Below are positions 9,101-18,036 of a stretch of DNA of 40,887 nucleotides, piece by piece. The stretch spans positions 1-40,887 of the forward strand of contig CALWHB010000012.1 of the NCBI GenBank assembly GCA_944380275.1, read 5' to 3'. Position numbers and translations under genes: made by a program. The notes beneath the pieces are model-generated. The model worked only from the letters and a program-made list of their open reading frames with translations. It was not told the DNA's origin and ran no database searches. Numbering within the stretch: the stretch's first letter is position 1; every line of letters begins with the position of its first letter. The DNA is from an uncultured Christensenellaceae bacterium. GTDB taxonomy: Bacteria > Bacillota > Clostridia > Christensenellales > UBA3700.

Positions 9101-11104
9101 ATGTTGAAAAAATTAGTTGTTGTTTTGATTGTAGCTTTTGTTGCGATGTTTGCTGCCTCGTGTAAAGACGCAGAAATAGCCGGACGCAAATCCGATAGCG
9201 TCATTTCTGTTGCAGACAACATGTATTTCGACGAAAGCGAGTGGGTTGCTTATCTTGCCGAAGAAAAAGAAATTTGTCTTGCAGAAGACGGAGAGAGCGA
9301 ATACAAAATCGTATATCCTTATTCACAAAAAGACAGTTTTGAAGAAGACGCGCTTTATCTGAGCAACGTTCTGAGAAAAATGACCGGGGACGAAGACGGT
9401 TTTGAAGTTGTCGGCGACAATGAATTTTATGCGGGAAAATACATTTCTCTCGGGGATACCGTTTTCTCTGCAGGTATTGAGGCAGAAGGGATTGATTACG
9501 ACGGGTACGTTATAAAAAGCGTTGACGGCAATATTTTTATCAAAGCCTCTTCATCTGCAGATTCACTTACGGCGAAGGACGGTGTTATAAACGGTATTTA
9601 CGGCTTTGCTGAAGACGTACTTGGCTGTATGTTCGTGAGAAACGATTATGATTATATTCCAAACGCCCCCACAGTATATCTTGCGCCTGTCGATATAAAA
9701 GAAAGTCCTGATTTTGCATGGAGAAGAATATATCAATACGAGGTTTCTCAGGACGGTTGGAGCAAAAGGATAAAAAGCAACGGGACGGGTGTAAAATCGG
9801 ATATCGGCAACGATGCCAACAACTACTGGGGAACGTGGTGCCACAGCGTATTCACGTTTGTAAACCCTGATATTTATTTTGAATCTCACCCTGAATATTT
9901 TGCATATATCGACGGGAACCGAAGAGTCGAATATAAAGGCAATCTCACGCAGCTTTGCTTTACCAATCCCGATATTTATCCGATTATAGAGGCAAAACTC
10001 GCTGAATTTATTGAAAAATACCCTGATGCCAAATACTGGGATTTCAGCATTAACGACAACAACAATTATTGTCAGTGTGAGGAGTGCGAAAAGTCTTATG
10101 AAAAATATAATTCAAGAGCAGGTGCGCTGATTGAAATTATCAACAGACTTGCAGAGCGTTTTCCCGATAAATATATAAGCACCCTCGCATATTTTTACAC
10201 AAAGGACGTGCCTGAAGGGATTGAGTGCGCAGACAACGTGAATATAGTTATCGCGCCGATACAGACGTCGCAGCTATACAGTAGTAAATACGGCGAAAAC
10301 GCAGCGTCCGCGCAGGCAAAGAAAATGGTCGAAGACTGGAGTGCGATATGCGACAATCTCTTTTTGTGGGATTATGTCGTCGATTTCAAGAATCTTCTTA
10401 TGCCTTATCCGAACTTCGCCGTTCAGAAAGAAAATGCCGAATTTTATAAAGAACGCAACGTCAAAAGCGTATTTCATCAGGGCAGCAGAGAAAAGAAAGA
10501 CGAGTTTGCGTGTCTTAGAAGTTATCTCCTTGCAAAACAGCTGTGGGATACTGATACCGACGTCAACGCTCTGCTTGGCAAATACGTCAGCGTAACTTAC
10601 GGCGACGCGGCAGAATATATTGCGGAATATATTGATATTATGCATGAATCGGTGCGGACAGAGGCTGCAGAACTCGATTTGTACGACGCGCCCGAAAACC
10701 ATTACGGGGATTATCTGAGCAACGATAATGTTGAAAAATATATGCAACTTACGCAAGACGCACTCAATGCCGTCGGCGACGATGCAATTAAAGTCGGCTT
10801 TGTCGAAGAAATCAGAATAAACGTCCTTTATGCCAAGATGTACTGTCAGGGATGGAACGTAAACGAAAAAGAAGAGGCTTTTGAAGAATTTACCGCTCTT
10901 GTTACAAAACACGGAATAGAAAGACCTTATGAAATCGCGCCGCCCGACATGGAAGAATTTCTGAGCGATACCTATCCTAAGTATCTTTCAACTATAAAGC
11001 TTTGGATTTCTCTGAGCGTAATCGGCGGAGTCGTTTTTGTATGCGTTCTGATTGCAATACCTGTAATAATCGCAAGACGAAAAAGACGGAAACAGAATAT
11101 GTGA
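9101..11104 (+). CDS. DUF4838 lipoprotein with C-terminal membrane anchor
   Basis: A 667-residue secreted protein. The signal peptide ends in AASC, so C21 is a likely lipidation site. The middle (about residues 240-480) matches DUF4838: FVNPDIYFESHPEYFAYIDG, then QLCFTNPD, DFSINDNNNYCQCEEC and FLWDYVVDF. This family has a barrel-like core and is found in glycan-degradation loci; its biochemical role is not established to my knowledge. A second hydrophobic segment (about 636-657) followed by RRKRRK looks like a C-terminal membrane anchor, which is unusual for a lipoprotein. AGGGG precedes the ATG. The gene diverges from the mutarotase-like gene, so it may belong to the same sugar locus, but no operator was found close to its own start. 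Confidence 0.8.
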   Translation: MLKKLVVVLIVAFVAMFAASCKDAEIAGRKSDSVISVADNMYFDESEWVAYLAEEKEICLAEDGESEYKIVYPYSQKDSFEEDALYLSNVLRKMTGDEDGFEVVGDNEFYAGKYISLGDTVFSAGIEAEGIDYDGYVIKSVDGNIFIKASSSADSLTAKDGVINGIYGFAEDVLGCMFVRNDYDYIPNAPTVYLAPVDIKESPDFAWRRIYQYEVSQDGWSKRIKSNGTGVKSDIGNDANNYWGTWCHSVFTFVNPDIYFESHPEYFAYIDGNRRVEYKGNLTQLCFTNPDIYPIIEAKLAEFIEKYPDAKYWDFSINDNNNYCQCEECEKSYEKYNSRAGALIEIINRLAERFPDKYISTLAYFYTKDVPEGIECADNVNIVIAPIQTSQLYSSKYGENAASAQAKKMVEDWSAICDNLFLWDYVVDFKNLLMPYPNFAVQKENAEFYKERNVKSVFHQGSREKKDEFACLRSYLLAKQLWDTDTDVNALLGKYVSVTYGDAAEYIAEYIDIMHESVRTEAAELDLYDAPENHYGDYLSNDNVEKYMQLTQDALNAVGDDAIKVGFVEEIRINVLYAKMYCQGWNVNEKEEAFEEFTALVTKHGIERPYEIAPPDMEEFLSDTYPKYLSTIKLWISLSVIGGVVFVCVLIAIPVIIARRKRRKQNM

Positions 11105-11280: not shown

Positions 11281-11306
11281 CATACCGCTCATAAAATAGC
11301 GGTATG
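11281..11306 (+). repeat. Hairpin containing the start codon of the YtxC-like gene
   Basis: CATACCGCT and AGCGGTATG form a perfect 9-bp inverted repeat with an 8-nt loop. The last three bases of the 3' arm are the ATG at 11304. The remaining gap from 11105 shows no other gene. Confidence 0.6.
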
Positions 11307-12023
11307 TGGAAGAAGACTTTGACGATTGATAAGAAGTATGACAAAGAACTCAGAGCGTTGCTCAGAGAACTCGGCAAGAATAAGTCGCTTGTTTTTACGG
11401 TAGAGGAGGACAGGTCGAGAAAAGTTGTTTCTGTTGCGTCGACGGGTGCGGACATCAACGCTGCAAACGATTATCTGTCCGACAGAGTAGCAAGACTTCT
11501 GACGACTTATTTCAAGCACGCTTTTATTTCAGACAGGCTTAATAAAAAAGAGTTTGACGAGGCGGAGGCGTGCCTTATGGCTGTTATGATTTATTATGAC
11601 TGTGAAGGAGATTATGCAGAAATTTTCGATAAATTGCGTGATTACGAAGTAATAAGCGTGGACGGAGTTTATAACTTTGCAATCAAAGACATAAAGGAGG
11701 ATTGGCAGGAGCTTTGCGACGTTTCCGGCAGTCTTTTCGACGGAAGTTACTGCGACGACGACCTGTACGACGTGGCTTGTTACGTAGTGGAGGAAAAAGC
11801 AGACAGGACGAGGCTCATGATTGCCGACGCTCAGAACCCGGTTGTAACCGATGTCGCGAAAGGGGTTTTTGTAACGGTTGACGATTTTTACGGGGATAAA
11901 AGGCTTAATCTCATAAACTGCGCAGTCGGATGCGGGGCGAAAGAAATCACTTTTGACGCCGGTTTCAAGGATAAAAAACTTTTTTCGGCATTGTCGAGAT
12001 TCGCAAAAATAAAAATCATCTGA
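11304..12023 (+). CDS. ytxC: YtxC-like putative sporulation protein
   Basis: A 239-residue soluble protein without recognised catalytic motifs. The region around YEVISVDGVYNFAIKDIKED (about residues 113-132) resembles the conserved leucine-glycine-phenylalanine-arginine segment of YtxC proteins, and the C-terminal end with VGCGAKEITFD and FAKIKII fits their end. Position supports the call: in Bacillus subtilis ytxC lies directly upstream of thrS, as here. It is shorter than the B. subtilis protein (about 280 residues). The function of YtxC is not well defined; it is linked to sporulation by annotation. The start codon is buried in a hairpin and lacks a good ribosome site, so translation may be weak or controlled. 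Confidence 0.6.
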   Translation: MWKKTLTIDKKYDKELRALLRELGKNKSLVFTVEEDRSRKVVSVASTGADINAANDYLSDRVARLLTTYFKHAFISDRLNKKEFDEAEACLMAVMIYYDCEGDYAEIFDKLRDYEVISVDGVYNFAIKDIKEDWQELCDVSGSLFDGSYCDDDLYDVACYVVEEKADRTRLMIADAQNPVVTDVAKGVFVTVDDFYGDKRLNLINCAVGCGAKEITFDAGFKDKKLFSALSRFAKIKII

Positions 12024-14352: not shown

Positions 14353-14393
14353 AAAAAGTCTTCCGACAAAGTGCGTGTCCCATAGGGATTTTT
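14353..14393 (+). repeat. Left copy of a 41-bp inverted repeat
   Basis: Begins AAAAAGTCTTCCG and ends ATAGGGATTTTT. The reverse complement of 17975-18015 matches at 34 of 41 positions: 13, 8 and 12 identical bases separated by a 7-bp variable part and one mismatch. The pair brackets the kinase, regulator and CNNM block. Confidence 0.8.
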
Positions 14394-14427
14394 ATAAACA
14401 TTATATAATTGCACTTTCAAGCGGAGA

Positions 14428-14460
14428 AAAAATCAGATTCCATTACGGAGTCTGATTTTT
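14428..14460 (+). terminator. Bidirectional-type terminator after thrS
   Basis: AAAAATCAGATTC pairs with GAGTCTGATTTTT (13 bp with one G-U pair), loop of seven, then a T run. The A run on the 5' side gives a T run on the other strand as well. It lies inside the left repeat, so it may belong to the inserted block rather than to thrS. Confidence 0.8.
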
Positions 14461-14485
14461 CTTTTGTTGTGGTAATCAATTCAAA

Positions 14486-14514
14486 TTGCAATCATCTTGT
14501 CTTTTTGATATAAT
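14486..14514 (+). promoter_or_regulatory. Upstream promoter of the kinase operon
   Basis: TTGCAA (14486-14491), 17-nt spacer, TATAAT (14509-14514). It probably gives basal expression, upstream of the regulator-boxed promoter. Confidence 0.55.
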
Positions 14515-14530
14515 ATAGTAAAGAAAAACA

Positions 14531-14563
14531 TTAACTGTTTCTTTATCAAAACTATGTTATAAT
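14531..14563 (+). promoter_or_regulatory. Response-regulator-type promoter of the kinase operon
   Basis: TTAAC, six bases, TTTAT, eleven bases, TATAAT. The half sites are 11 bp apart, one helical turn, as in OmpR/PhoB-type regulator boxes that replace the -35. The same layout recurs at 16364-16396. Confidence 0.65.
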
Positions 14564-14593
14564 AAAAATGACTTATTACGTGAAGCAAATAAG

Positions 14594-15658
14594 ATGAAAA
14601 AACTTCCCAAACAACTTAAAAACGTGCTGTTCACGATAATTATATTGATTGTTGCGTTCGGGGTATCCGTTCTTTTACAAGACGTGCTTACGATACAAGA
14701 ACACGTTACGACGGTGTTTGTTTTTGCCGTGTTTTTAGTATCTCTTTGTACGGACGGATATTGGTATGGTATCATTACTGCACTTGTAGGAATGCTTGCA
14801 GTAAATTGGGCTTTTACCTTTCCGTTTTTTGAATTTAATTTTACCATTCCCGAAAATCTTTTATCGGCTGTTATTATGATTGTCGTTTCCATATTAACGA
14901 GTATGCTTACGACGAAGGTAAAGCGTTCGGAAGAAATAAAAGCAATCGGTGAAAAAGAACAAATGAGAGCAAATCTTCTTCGTGCTGTTTCTCACGATTT
15001 AAGAACACCGCTTACGACCATTTACGGGGCAAGTTCCACAATGATAGAAAATTACGAGAGTGTTCCCGATGAACAAAAACTTAAAATATTGGGCGGTATC
15101 AAAGAGGACGCGCAATGCCTTATCCGTATGGTGGAAAATTTGCTGTCCGTTACAAAAATCGAAGAAGGAAAAGTAAAACTTATCAAAACCCCTACCGTAT
15201 TGGACGAATTGATAGACTCGGTTATCGTAAAATTCAAAAAACACTATCCTACGCAAGAGATTGATTTGGATATTCCCGAAGAAATTGTCCTTATTGCTAT
15301 GGACGCTATTTTGATAGAACAGGTGCTTATCAATCTTTTGGAAAACGCCGTTCAACACGCAACGGGAATGACGAAACTTTCCCTAAAAGTCTATGTAATT
15401 GACAATAAAGCCATTTTTGAAATAAAAGACAATGGTTGCGGTATTGCAAAAGAACGGCTTGAAACGATTTTTCAAGGCAATTACGAAAAGAGTGAAAGTC
15501 TTTACGATAGTCAAAAACGAAATGCAGGCATCGGACTTTCCGTTTGTGCTACGATTATAAAAGCGCACGATGGTTCAATTCATGTAGAAAACAACAAAGA
15601 TGGTGGCGCGAAATTCCGCTTTTCGTTGGATATTGAGGAGATGAACAATGAGCAATAA
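14594..15658 (+). CDS. KdpD-like membrane sensor histidine kinase lacking the KdpD N-terminal domains
   Basis: A 354-residue kinase. It begins with a DUF4118 (KdpD membrane) region of about four helices (residues 9-108), followed by HisKA with phospho-acceptor H134 (AVSHDLRTPLTTIYG) and a HATPase domain with the N box (NLLENAVQHA) and G boxes (DNGCGI, NAGIGLSV). Full KdpD is about 900 residues and has cytoplasmic Kdp and USP domains, which are missing here. No kdpFABC genes are present, so potassium control is not supported. The likely partner is the response regulator that overlaps its 3' end by 11 bases. Codons are richer in TTA, AAA and CGT than in thrS or the pur genes, which suggests transfer. 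Confidence 0.88.
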   Translation: MKKLPKQLKNVLFTIIILIVAFGVSVLLQDVLTIQEHVTTVFVFAVFLVSLCTDGYWYGIITALVGMLAVNWAFTFPFFEFNFTIPENLLSAVIMIVVSILTSMLTTKVKRSEEIKAIGEKEQMRANLLRAVSHDLRTPLTTIYGASSTMIENYESVPDEQKLKILGGIKEDAQCLIRMVENLLSVTKIEEGKVKLIKTPTVLDELIDSVIVKFKKHYPTQEIDLDIPEEIVLIAMDAILIEQVLINLLENAVQHATGMTKLSLKVYVIDNKAIFEIKDNGCGIAKERLETIFQGNYEKSESLYDSQKRNAGIGLSVCATIIKAHDGSIHVENNKDGGAKFRFSLDIEEMNNEQ

Positions 15659-16355
15659 ATATAGAATTTTGATTGTTGAAGATGAAAATAATATACAAAC
15701 GTTTATTTCTGCATTATTAGAAGCAAACGGTTATCAAGCAATTACAGCAAACACTTGTTACCAAGCAGAAATGTTGTATGGTTCATACTTGCCCGATTTA
15801 ATTATTTTAGACTTGGGTTTACCTGATAAAGACGGTAGCGAGTTGATATCAAAATTACGAGAAAACGATTCCGTTCCTATTATTGTTTTGTCTGCACGTA
15901 GCAAAGAAACAGACAAGGTAAATGCTCTTGATTTAGGGGCAAATGATTATATCACAAAGCCGTTTGGCTCGGCAGAACTTTTGGCACGAGTCCGTTCTGT
16001 ATTAAGGAATAGCCGACATAATGAATTAGGACGATTGCCAAACGCAAAATTTATTGTTGGTGATTTACTTATTGATTACGAGGCGCGACAAATCTTTGTT
16101 AAAGATGAAGAAATTAAATTAACGCAAACGGAATACAATATTATTGCGTTTTTATCCGAACATTCGGGAAAAATGATGACGTATGCGACAATAATAAAAG
16201 CGATTTGGGGCGGTTGTGCGGACGAAAGCAGTATTAAAAAATTACAGGTAAATATGGCAAATATTCGCAAGAAATTCGGAGCGAAACCGGGCGAAGATTA
16301 TTACATTACAAATGAACTTGGTGTAGGATATCGAATGAACGAAAAACCCGATTAA
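15648..16355 (+). CDS. OmpR/KdpE-family response regulator
   Basis: A 235-residue two-component regulator. The receiver domain (1-120) has acidic pocket E11/D12, phospho-acceptor D55 (IILDLGLPD) and the switch lysine in TKPF. The winged-helix DNA-binding domain is at about 130-232 (LTQTEYNIIAFLSEHSGKM, then GVGYRM). It overlaps the kinase gene, so the two are made together. Matching direct-repeat boxes before the kinase operon and before the CNNM gene make it the natural candidate to activate both. Codon use is strongly A+T rich. Confidence 0.92.
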   Translation: MSNKYRILIVEDENNIQTFISALLEANGYQAITANTCYQAEMLYGSYLPDLIILDLGLPDKDGSELISKLRENDSVPIIVLSARSKETDKVNALDLGANDYITKPFGSAELLARVRSVLRNSRHNELGRLPNAKFIVGDLLIDYEARQIFVKDEEIKLTQTEYNIIAFLSEHSGKMMTYATIIKAIWGGCADESSIKKLQVNMANIRKKFGAKPGEDYYITNELGVGYRMNEKPD

Positions 16356-16363
16356 ATTTAATC

Positions 16364-16396
16364 TTAACTAAATCTTTACTGTGTATATGTTATACT
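16364..16396 (+). promoter_or_regulatory. Response-regulator-type promoter of the CNNM gene
   Basis: TTAAC, six bases, TTTAC, eleven bases, TATACT. Spacing is identical to 14531-14563, and both share TATGT just before the -10. It begins nine bases after the regulator stop codon. Confidence 0.65.
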
Positions 16397-16427
16397 ATAA
16401 AAGTAAAAATTTTATAAAAGGAGAAAA

Positions 16428-16460
16428 ATGTGGACGACTTTCCTCGATGTAGCCTACTAA
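16428..16460 (+). CDS. Leader peptide MWTTFLDVAY
   Basis: A 10-codon open frame with an excellent ribosome site (AAAAGGAG, five bases before the ATG) and a TAA stop at 16458-16460. It is the first translated item after the boxed promoter and lies 120 nt before the CNNM start, followed directly by strong hairpins. This is the layout of leader-peptide attenuators. The peptide is not one I recognise. It could also be an accidental frame, but the ribosome site is better than that of most genes around it. Confidence 0.55.
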   Translation: MWTTFLDVAY

Positions 16461-16580
16461 ACAACTTCTTTTGTAAATCTTCTATTTGCAAAAGTATAAA
16501 CGTTTATAGTCTAACAATGTATATTCTACGTTGTTAGCCGTTTTACTTTATACTAACATTTACAAATAGGAGAATTACAA
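16461..16580 (+). promoter_or_regulatory. Structured leader with competing hairpins before the CNNM gene
   Basis: Stem A pairs 16468-16478 with 16484-16494 (11 bp, one G-U). Stem B pairs 16511-16521 with 16527-16537 (11 bp, one G-U). Alternatives exist: GTTAG at 16533-16537 can pair with CTAAC at 16553-16557, and CTATTTG at 16482-16488 can pair with CAAATAG at 16563-16569, touching the ribosome site AGGAG (16568-16572). Opening stem A by a ribosome on the leader peptide would change which pairings form. No T tract is present, so any control would be at translation rather than termination. Confidence 0.5.
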
Positions 16581-17897
16581 ATGGACATATTTTATCAGTT
16601 ATTATTACAGTTTATACTAATTTTACTCAACGCCTTTTTTGCGGCAACGGAAATAGCGATTATTTCTTTAAACGAAAAGAAAGTAAAAGCCCGTGCTGAC
16701 GAAGGCGATAAAAAAGCAAAGAAGATGCTAAAAATCATCAAAGACCCGACGAAATTCCTTTCGACGATACAAATTGGTATTACGCTTGCAGGTTTTCTCG
16801 GCTCGGCATTTGCGGCAGATAATTTTGCGGAAAGGTTGTCGGGTTGGCTCGTTACAACGTTTAACGTTTCGGCGCAAGGTGCAAGCGTTATCAACACCGT
16901 TTCAGTTATTGTAATTACGTTAATCCTTTCTTACTTTACCCTTGTTTTGGGTGAACTTGTCCCCAAACGTTGGGCAATGAAGCATAAGGAAAAACTTGCT
17001 AACGGCGTATGTGGCATTATTTCCGTTTTAACGGTTATCTTGAAACCCGTTATATGGTTTTTGACTGTTTCTACAAACGGCGTTCTTCGTTTGTTTGGTG
17101 TAAAGCCTAACGATGACGACGAAGCCGTTTCGGAAGAAGATATCGTTCTTATGCTTGACGCAGGTGGCGACGGAGGTACTATCGACAAAGAGGATATAAA
17201 ATACATTAAAAATGTTTTTAGACTTGACGGTATGACCGCAGAGGACGTGATGACACCGAGAATGAGCGTAGTGTGTATATCTGACACTGCAAGTGATAAC
17301 GAGATTATTCAAATGATTGAAACGGAAGGCTATTCTCGTATTCCCGTTTATTCGGGCGACGTGGATAATATTGTTGGTATTTTGTACGCGCGTGAATATT
17401 TGTTAAAGCGTGGAACGCCTAACTTTGAATTAAAACAAATTTTGAAAGAGCCGACGTTTGTTCCGAAAGGAAAATCTTTGGATATCTTGTTTAAGGAAAT
17501 GCAAAAATCGCATACGCATATCGTTATTCTTATCGACGAATATGGTATGACTTCGGGTATCGTTACGATGGAAGATATTTTAGAAGAACTTGTGGGCGAA
17601 ATTTGGGACGAACAAGACGAAGAGATAGAGCCGATTACAAAGGAAAGCGATACAGTATTTTTTGTGAAAACTAATATTTCCGTTGAAACGTTTTTTGATT
17701 ATTTCAATTTAGTAAGAGATGAAAATATTGAATCTGCAACGGTAAATGGTTGGATTATAGAAAACCGTGAAGATATTCCCCAAGAAGGTTATTCCTTCGA
17801 TTATGATAAATTGAGAATTACTGTTACGAAAGTGGAAAATAAGCAAACGCAAGAAATTAAAGTAGAAATTTTAGAGCATACAGATATGCATATTTAA
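16581..17897 (+). CDS. CNNM/CBS domain (CorC/HlyC-type) membrane protein
   Basis: A 438-residue integral membrane protein. The N-terminal DUF21/CNNM domain (about 1-150) has three to four helices and AATEIAIISLNEKKV near its start. A CBS pair follows (about 215-335; VMTPRMSVVCIS, IVTMEDILEELVGEIWDE) and then a CorC_HlyC domain (about 345-430). The family includes magnesium exporters such as MpfA/CorB and proteins once annotated as hemolysins; magnesium or divalent-cation efflux is the best family-based guess. It is the last gene of the repeat-flanked block, has its own boxed promoter and leader, and shares the block's A+T-rich codon use. Confidence 0.92.
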   Translation: MDIFYQLLLQFILILLNAFFAATEIAIISLNEKKVKARADEGDKKAKKMLKIIKDPTKFLSTIQIGITLAGFLGSAFAADNFAERLSGWLVTTFNVSAQGASVINTVSVIVITLILSYFTLVLGELVPKRWAMKHKEKLANGVCGIISVLTVILKPVIWFLTVSTNGVLRLFGVKPNDDDEAVSEEDIVLMLDAGGDGGTIDKEDIKYIKNVFRLDGMTAEDVMTPRMSVVCISDTASDNEIIQMIETEGYSRIPVYSGDVDNIVGILYAREYLLKRGTPNFELKQILKEPTFVPKGKSLDILFKEMQKSHTHIVILIDEYGMTSGIVTMEDILEELVGEIWDEQDEEIEPITKESDTVFFVKTNISVETFFDYFNLVRDENIESATVNGWIIENREDIPQEGYSFDYDKLRITVTKVENKQTQEIKVEILEHTDMHI

Positions 17898-17924
17898 GAG
17901 AAGAAAACTAAATAGAATGAGAAA

Positions 17925-17947
17925 AGGCGTGGCATCACGCCACGCCT
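17925..17947 (-). terminator. Terminator hairpin between the CNNM gene and the WYL gene
   Basis: AGGCGTGGC pairs with GCCACGCCT (9 bp, 5-nt loop). On the minus strand it is followed by TTTTCTC, so it mainly serves the WYL regulator; on the plus strand it lacks a T run. Confidence 0.7.
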
Positions 17948-17974
17948 GACTCTTCAAAGACAGCACCTACCGCA

Positions 17975-18015
17975 AAAAATCCCTATTGGACACGCGGTAA
18001 AACGGAAGACTTTTT
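17975..18015 (-). repeat. Right copy of the 41-bp inverted repeat
   Basis: Reverse complement matches 14353-14393 at 34 of 41 positions, in opposite orientation 3.6 kb away. It lies between the CNNM hairpin and the end of the WYL gene. No obvious target-site duplication is visible outside the copies. Confidence 0.8.
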
Positions 18016-18036
18016 TTCTGTCTTTGTTATTATAAT

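Follow-up and report, generated by a model that had tools for sequence, protein, structure and literature searches.

How did a truncated sensor kinase, a response regulator and a CNNM/CorC membrane protein come to stand together between thrS and a WYL gene in an uncultured Christensenellaceae bacterium? The question is raised by positions 14353 to 18015 of contig CALWHB010000012.1 (assembly GCA_944380275.1), of which we analysed a stretch of 40,887 nucleotides, hereafter the window, against the host genome (G000; 1.78 Mb, 89.8% complete) and related genomes (G and L numbers are our labels for genomes and loci). A first-pass annotation had described the block as a self-contained, mobile module bracketed by a 41-bp inverted repeat. 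Our comparisons indicated that the block is very probably non-autonomous and passenger-only, derived from a Tn4451-like element with a recombinase that targets terminator dyads. Throughout, thrS, gdh, the pur genes and groEL, together with the EamA, GNAT, XRE, PstS, HipA, four-helix-bundle, exonuclease, methyltransferase, Na/Pi cotransporter, DUF1989, Fic, HsdM and isochorismatase assignments, were named by eye without a family search.

The two arms of the repeat (14353-14393 and 17975-18015) are indeed complementary at 34 of 41 positions (83%). The repeat is nevertheless not one unit or the end of the element, as had been proposed, and proved to be composite: its outer part is the stem of a host terminator, and the element's own terminal inverted repeats are 24 bp long (21/24 identical). 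The boundaries and end features are as follows.

14353-14367, no strand: left arm of the host thrS intrinsic terminator, AAAAAGTCTTCCGAC, complementary to 18003-18015.
14368-14369, no strand: left copy of the 2-bp crossover repeat, AA.
14370-17998, plus strand: the whole mobile element, 3,629 bp, with 98-99% identical copies in L087 and L109.
14370-14393, plus strand: left terminal inverted repeat, AGTGCGTGTCCCATAGGGATTTTT, a putative attP half-site.
14423-14466, plus strand: the element's own left terminator-like hairpin (fold of 14405-14480: z -5.31, 0/200 shuffles).
17894-17911, plus strand: the codons LREEN*, scar of a large serine recombinase gene, of which the sister copy L087 keeps 64 codons.
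17925-17947, plus strand: the element's own right terminator-like hairpin, AGGCGTGGCATCACGCCACGCCT.
17975-17998, minus strand: right terminal inverted repeat, ACCGCGTGTCCAATAGGGATTTTT, a putative attP half-site.
17999-18000, no strand: right copy of the 2-bp crossover repeat, AA.
18001-18017, no strand: right arm and T-run of the host thrS terminator, AACGGAAGACTTTTTTT.

AAAAAGTCTTCCG, the outermost 13 nt on the left, pairs with the outer part of the right arm, CGGAAGACTTTTTTT, as two halves of one intrinsic terminator, and rejoining the window flanks gives AAAAAGTCTTCCG-ACAAAA-CGGAAGACTTTTT, with a predicted energy of -17.2 kcal/mol. By its sequence, the block thus interrupts the thrS intrinsic terminator at its loop, with an identical AA dinucleotide on each side. 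The 41-bp unit was not scattered through the host genome in the manner of a common terminator: a pattern of its 36-nt core, with ≤3 mismatches allowed, matched only two sites (reversed control, 0), and a 72-base query returned these two sites again and, beyond them, six partial matches with lengths of only 18-23 nt.

The block also differs from its surroundings in composition, bearing out the A+T-rich codon use noticed earlier. The G+C content is 36.3% in the element and 45.4% in the rest of the window, and third-position G+C is 0.29-0.36 in the element genes versus 0.50-0.60 in thrS, gdh, purE, purC and purM, with intermediate values for the WYL gene (0.46) and the open reading frame (ORF) at 9101 (0.43). 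Related genomes provided the empty site. The WYL gene was found in 12 same-genus relatives, in eight at 81-86% identity and in four at 48-52%, and the thrS-WYL junction could be read in seven of the eight (L042 and L044-L049), the count leaving out L043, which meets a contig end, and the four relatives without thrS on the fetched piece. None of these seven junctions carried the block, the gap between the aligned ends of thrS and WYL measuring 93-676 nt; five were short (93-171 nt), each with its own terminator hairpin by reading, and L045 has sequence just 5′ of the window's terminator in common with the window. Since thrS and WYL stand together without the block in relatives and halves of a terminator lie at both of its ends, the block was therefore inserted into the loop of the thrS terminator. 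No CNNM homologue above 42% identity occurred in the 12 same-genus genomes. As a separate observation, another gene (isochorismatase-like) lies directly behind thrS in L048 (848-1501) and L049 (495-1172), where the window has the element; no inverted repeats of ≥14 nt were found in the thrS-WYL interval of these two loci.

Copies of the element were then found in distant hosts. The inner end, searched with ≤2 mismatches in 396 genomes of the order, matched in 25 genomes including the host, although at least eight of the 31 listed places (L057, L058, L062, L063, L064, L070, L078 and L079) fall in an apparently single conserved coding motif and are without element features; the reversed control pattern had two matches in the 396 genomes, and none was seen in a later scan. 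In G231, which belongs to another family, the whole block lies behind groEL (L087; the GTDB stretch of CALVUQ010000002.1, L105, is the same place), again in a terminator loop, and its element is 98.15% identical to that of the window over 3,574 nt. A longer version lies on CALVWQ010000026.1, with its left end at L109 and its right end at L126; it shares 99.0% identity over 3,543 nt and includes a Na/Pi cotransporter-like gene on the side of the right end. CALVOD010000183.1 (L117) has the right part only: an internal deletion took most of the kinase and the regulator, and the CNNM gene, the Na/Pi cotransporter-like gene and the right end are retained. In G373, again of another family, only both ends were present, at contig ends. 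The ThrS proteins of these hosts are 67% (G231), 65% (L109 host), 69% (L117 host) and 69% (G373) identical to that of the window, those of two same-genus genomes 97-98%. Judged by these identities, the transfer is recent and crosses families. The mobile part of the earlier description thus stood, on empty sites, near-identical distant copies and 2-bp repeats; the self-contained part did not, as only the scar of a recombinase is left. The element as DNA did not turn up in plasmids or phages: 13 plasmid records matched, with a best cover of 6% (the 8 listed among the 13 all fall in the kinase, regulator or CNNM parts), and five phage records, with a best cover of 12% (all five in these same parts), and viral contigs gave no exact match to GCGTGTCCNATAGGGATTTTT.

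The window copy itself holds neither a transposase gene, in agreement with the first-pass annotation, nor a recombinase gene. Sister copies retain part of a recombinase gene. L087 is 266 bp longer than the window copy, with about 209 of these near the right end, and the 64 codons in this right-hand part match Pfam DUF4368, a domain of large serine recombinases, at 2e-15; the tail in L126 is 97% identical. A search of 25 genomes with this tail gave matches in nine. An apparently whole relative was found in G301, where the gene that ends just before a right end of the same kind as the window's encodes a full-length recombinase of 556 aa (L235; Resolvase, Recombinase, Zn ribbon and DUF4368 domains). 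A second contig of G301 has TrkH, TrkA, KdpD, KdpE and a Mob_Pre relaxase (1.6e-48) behind the same left end, and the composite element of 9,752 bp is flanked by AA repeats, its outer flanks rejoining as the perfect stem CGGTTACTAAAATTAGTAACCG. In G042 and G114, partial recombinase genes adjoin similar right ends and half terminators, and the right-end hairpin AGGCGTGGCATCACGCCACGCCT recurs 3′ of the recombinase genes, whether intact or partial, of L235, L236 and L237. G176 (L245) has a recombinase tail that is truncated and more distant (40% over 163 aa), in an element of 2,644 bp with GA repeats in a perfect terminator-like dyad. The DUF4368 genes at L244, L249 and L250 had no clear left partner on the pieces examined. 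Two observations on these elements stand on their own: L245 joins a HipA-like gene to its tail, an independent case of passenger plus tail, and the KdpD of G301 lies in two overlapping frames (L101, 3418-5122; 304 and 265 aa), perhaps through a frameshift or an assembly error.

Across this order of Clostridia, the same ends bound a population of elements. An exact scan of the genome collection for GCGTKTCCNWTAGGGATTTTT returned 35 stretches, 33 of them titled Clostridia, Clostridiales, Oscillospiraceae or Firmicutes and two (L130 and L135) unrelated chance matches without element features. Element sizes were 317-3,895 bp, plus one of 265 bp. Passengers included a HIT protein, a WYL protein with GIY-YIG and, in a longer form, TrkH, TrkA, KdpD and KdpE; by eye, further passengers were four-helix-bundle proteins, a membrane XRE protein, an EamA-like transporter, GNAT, exonuclease, lipoprotein and methyltransferase genes, and another set of a small ATPase with a DUF1989-like protein. 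Within the genus itself, another perfect terminator-like dyad, in G011, holds an element of about 1.3 kb. The regions around further matches to the R1 model held more cassettes and no intact recombinase, and many of the weaker matches resemble ordinary terminators. Three side observations concern this population. A very similar 117-118-aa protein (four-helix-bundle/S23-like) recurs in L108, L116, L138 and L206, some 240-250 nt from the right end, with other genes differing; L114, L110, L106 and L133, 317-364 bp long, share these ends, lack an evident gene and are like miniature inverted-repeat transposable elements, with GTTATATT repeats in those that were read further; and in L225 a related but different end, CCCTATAAGGGATTTTT, adjoins Fic-like and HsdM-like genes and may mark defence cargo.

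We evaluated the landing rule on the nearest inward-facing end pairs that passed the end score, with flanks ignored, among the loci from L057 up plus the window (n = 20 after merging of duplicates). A first scan had given 16, which is not an unbiased count because it was filtered on dinucleotide and fold. Equal dinucleotides flanked the predicted boundary in 18/20 pairs (AA in nine, TA in six, TT in three) versus 126/380 swapped flanks. At offsets of -4 to -1 and +1 to +6 they occurred in 0-4 of the 20, and the high counts at -5 (18) and -6 (13) arise because conserved letters lie inside the ends. When rejoined, the flanks folded with a mean of -16.5 kcal/mol versus -7.0 for swapped flanks, and reached ≤-10 kcal/mol in 17/20 versus 72/380, with the dinucleotide in the loop; swapped flanks fold somewhat because most flanks are A-rich on the left and T-rich on the right. 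Compensatory changes were seen in the left-end hairpins of the largest end class, which is related to that of the window element and has its hairpins at the corresponding place. In these (20 sequences), 96.5% of cells were paired and 38 cells had changed on both sides versus 10.3 in shuffles and 0-4 when the structure was slid, though further pair types showed no excess (17 versus 16.7 in shuffles) and the structure was drawn from the same alignment.

These observations suggest the following course of events. A DUF4368 recombinase, supplied in trans or by an ancestor, would join an attP, in which AA stands between two inverted arms of 24 bp, to a terminator dyad serving as attB. This joining would split the host terminator, and the element's end hairpins would then stand in for what was lost, probably restoring termination on both sides. 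As the end hairpins would replace the lost terminator, landing would therefore be nearly neutral. More tentatively, and with the odds slightly against it, DUF4368 recombinases as a class may read the intrinsic terminator dyad as attB, and their ends may have given rise to dispersed, integron-like, passenger-only cassettes with their own terminators, moved in trans between families of gut Clostridia. The cargo of this cassette pool comprises ion transport and two-component genes and, by eye, four-helix-bundle, HipA-like, acetyltransferase and methyltransferase genes.

Among other explanations, the one that fares best, though we consider it unlikely, is that terminators are only where survivors are found: the recombinase would be unspecific in A+T-rich DNA, and selection would spare harmless insertions in terminators, which are likely neutral places. 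Durrant et al. 2022 (PMC10083194) fit this in describing DUF4368 recombinases as multi-targeting, the domain occurring in 63% of the recombinases of one multi-targeting clade and one enzyme having 21 sites in which the core is TT and the outer ends are T- and A-rich. Such an enzyme should, however, also hit neutral intergenic DNA elsewhere, whereas in 17/20 pairs the crossover falls in the loop of a strong hairpin formed by the rejoined flanks.

It is improbable that a DDE insertion sequence such as IS30 gave rise to the block as a mobile insertion cassette, with cargo in place of the transposase. The 24-bp inverted ends, 2-bp repeats and palindromic target would suit such an origin: IS30 duplicates 2 bp at the centre of palindromes, a target taste that would fit, and IS30 transposases occur in 3/22 element-bearing genomes. 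No such end pair lay within about 1.5 kb of the three IS30 genes, though, the best single matches having three mismatches, and the right end is adjoined by the tail of a serine recombinase and not by a transposase. A serine recombinase is preferred over a DDE transposase because a DUF4368 tail or whole gene adjoins the same right end, and mobilisation by IS30, the only DDE family searched, was rejected on the three genomes in 22 and the lack of such end pairs around the transposase genes. Judged from the ends and what adjoins them, there is very little to recommend movement by an integron integrase or another hairpin-reading tyrosine recombinase: many different passengers with common ends and hairpins at those ends are integron-like, but the cassettes are dispersed, with 2-bp repeats and two inverted ends at single sites and not in arrays, and the right end again carries the serine recombinase tail. 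An old resident operon between paired terminators, with a low G+C content that alone could be ordinary, was rejected as next to impossible given 7/7 junctions without the block, near-identical copies in distant hosts and no close CNNM protein in the genus.

Besides the two IS30 points, several observations weigh against derivation from a Tn4451-like element that lands in terminators. The case is made from sequence, with no excision or integration event observed. Two of the 20 pairs (L189 and L179) lack equal dinucleotides, and three (L121, L106 and L189) fall short of -10 kcal/mol. Sixteen of the 25 genomes searched had no match to the recombinase tail, nor had the host genome at its 89.8% completeness. 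Most passenger elements carry no recombinase remnant: in tblastn against the loci collected up to that search, the tail matched nothing but copies of this element, apart from one weak match (L123, 31% over 51 aa, E 0.06); because of this lack, the enzyme of the other passenger elements is deduced from their ends. The intact element of G301 also spans two contigs, which were joined through a 49-nt overlap.

The cargo itself proved to be as the first-pass annotation had listed it, by family searches, and its two transcription units appear to be tied by a common promoter box, which supports the sensor-to-transporter module proposed there. Its features are as follows.

14531-14561, plus strand: promoter region of the kinase operon, with the putative regulator box TTAACTNNNTCTTTA and TATGTTATA.
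14594-15658, plus strand: sensor histidine kinase, the C-terminal half of KdpD only (DUF4118, HisKA, HATPase_c).
15648-16355, plus strand: KdpE-like response regulator, closest to KdpE.
16364-16394, plus strand: second copy of the promoter box, 5′ of the CNNM leader (exact match; 0 in 100 shuffles).
16428-16460, plus strand: putative leader ORF MWTTFLDVAY*, start and stop kept in 4/4 copies compared.
16470-16580, plus strand: long hairpin enclosing the CNNM ribosome-binding site AGGAG (16568-16572).
16581-17897, plus strand: CNNM/CorC family membrane protein with CBS domains.

The kinase (354 aa) lacks the KdpD/Usp N-terminus and matches only KdpD positions 649-884, at 165 bits versus a cut-off of 1123. 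Neither a kdp operon (kdpFABC) nor a relaxase (MobV/Mob_Pre) gene is among the element's ORFs. All three domains of the transporter (CNNM transmembrane, CBS and CorC_HlyC) scored above Pfam cut-offs, and its nearest models were GldE and PaeA, the nearest including magnesium/cobalt and polyamine exporters, all far below their cut-offs. The first-pass annotation had guessed at magnesium or divalent-cation stress as input and output; sister cargo (TrkH/TrkA and, by eye, the Na/Pi cotransporter) points to ion homeostasis more broadly. In the window as a whole there was no Rfam family at the gathering threshold and no tRNA, and PADLOC matches of its proteins were weak. A 239-aa ORF 5′ of thrS (11304-12023) had no Pfam or NCBIfam match.

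The 31-nt box, TTAACTNNNTCTTTA-N7-TATGTTATA, gave its two matches even at two mismatches and 0 in 100 shuffles, and a similar box was seen by eye 5′ of TrkH in the G301 element, whose kinase shares 41% and whose regulator 44% identity with its counterpart in the window. Between the regulator and CNNM genes lies the 10-codon leader ORF with its ribosome-binding site, followed by the hairpin (fold of 16415-16585: -43.6 kcal/mol, z -5.63, 0/200 shuffles), and both are kept in four copies. On this arrangement, the kinase would phosphorylate the regulator, which would bind the box common to its own promoter and that of the CNNM gene and so probably controls its own operon and the transporter. The leader ORF and the hairpin hiding the ribosome-binding site would further restrain translation of the CNNM protein, a probable case of translational attenuation, and the protein itself would export a cation or polyamine. 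Two points count against this scheme of control: the box pattern was derived from the two sites themselves, and the leader hairpin is almost without compensatory change between copies and is weaker in L117.

The nearest known relatives are the Tn4451/Tn4453 elements (TnpX/TndX). Their core is GA in Tn4451. The G301 element resembles them in its DUF4368 large serine recombinase, Mob_Pre relaxase and cargo, and the window element in its identical 2-bp repeats (AA); they differ in that the window copy has lost the recombinase, of which LREEN* is left, and the relaxase, and in that the core here is AA, TA or TT, with GA in L245 only. In the available portions of PMC5704250 and PMC3158075, Tn4451 recombines at 2-bp identical sequences, has MobV and shows low integration specificity, and its relative Tn6104 carries a two-component system and a transporter; the target seen here, the loop of terminator-like dyads, is not stated in those portions. 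The recombinases of Durrant et al. are similar in that a terminator would suit a TT core flanked by T- and A-rich outer ends; the word terminator occurs 0 times in the main text and passenger-only derivatives are not described in the portion available (PMC10083194). Like mobile insertion cassettes, the window element has passenger genes between transposon-like ends without a transposase. It is passenger-only as well, and its ends were set against three IS30 loci only, which lack such ends. Known mobile insertion cassettes derive from DDE insertion sequences, whereas the window element would derive from a serine recombinase element. Its kinase core and regulator are nearest KdpD and KdpE, but the KdpD/Usp sensor domain and kdpFABC are absent, and here a KdpDE-like pair and a CorC/CNNM/PaeA-like protein are joined in one mobile unit. 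Titles and abstract openings, a search outside of which lie subscription papers and preprints and by which novelty is not proven, gave no report of terminators as the target of insertion sequences, serine recombinases, TnpX or DUF4368 proteins.

Integration at many sites is known for DUF4368 recombinases, which are under development as integration tools and whose target is described, in the sources as far as available, as relaxed and A/T-flanked. If the target is a terminator dyad, this would give a simple rule for DUF4368 sites and explain harmless landing. The two halves of a broken terminator would then mark insertion ends for annotators, even where no recombinase is left, and uncultured gut Clostridia would prove to harbour a reservoir of small mobile gene cassettes, to which the elements described here belong.

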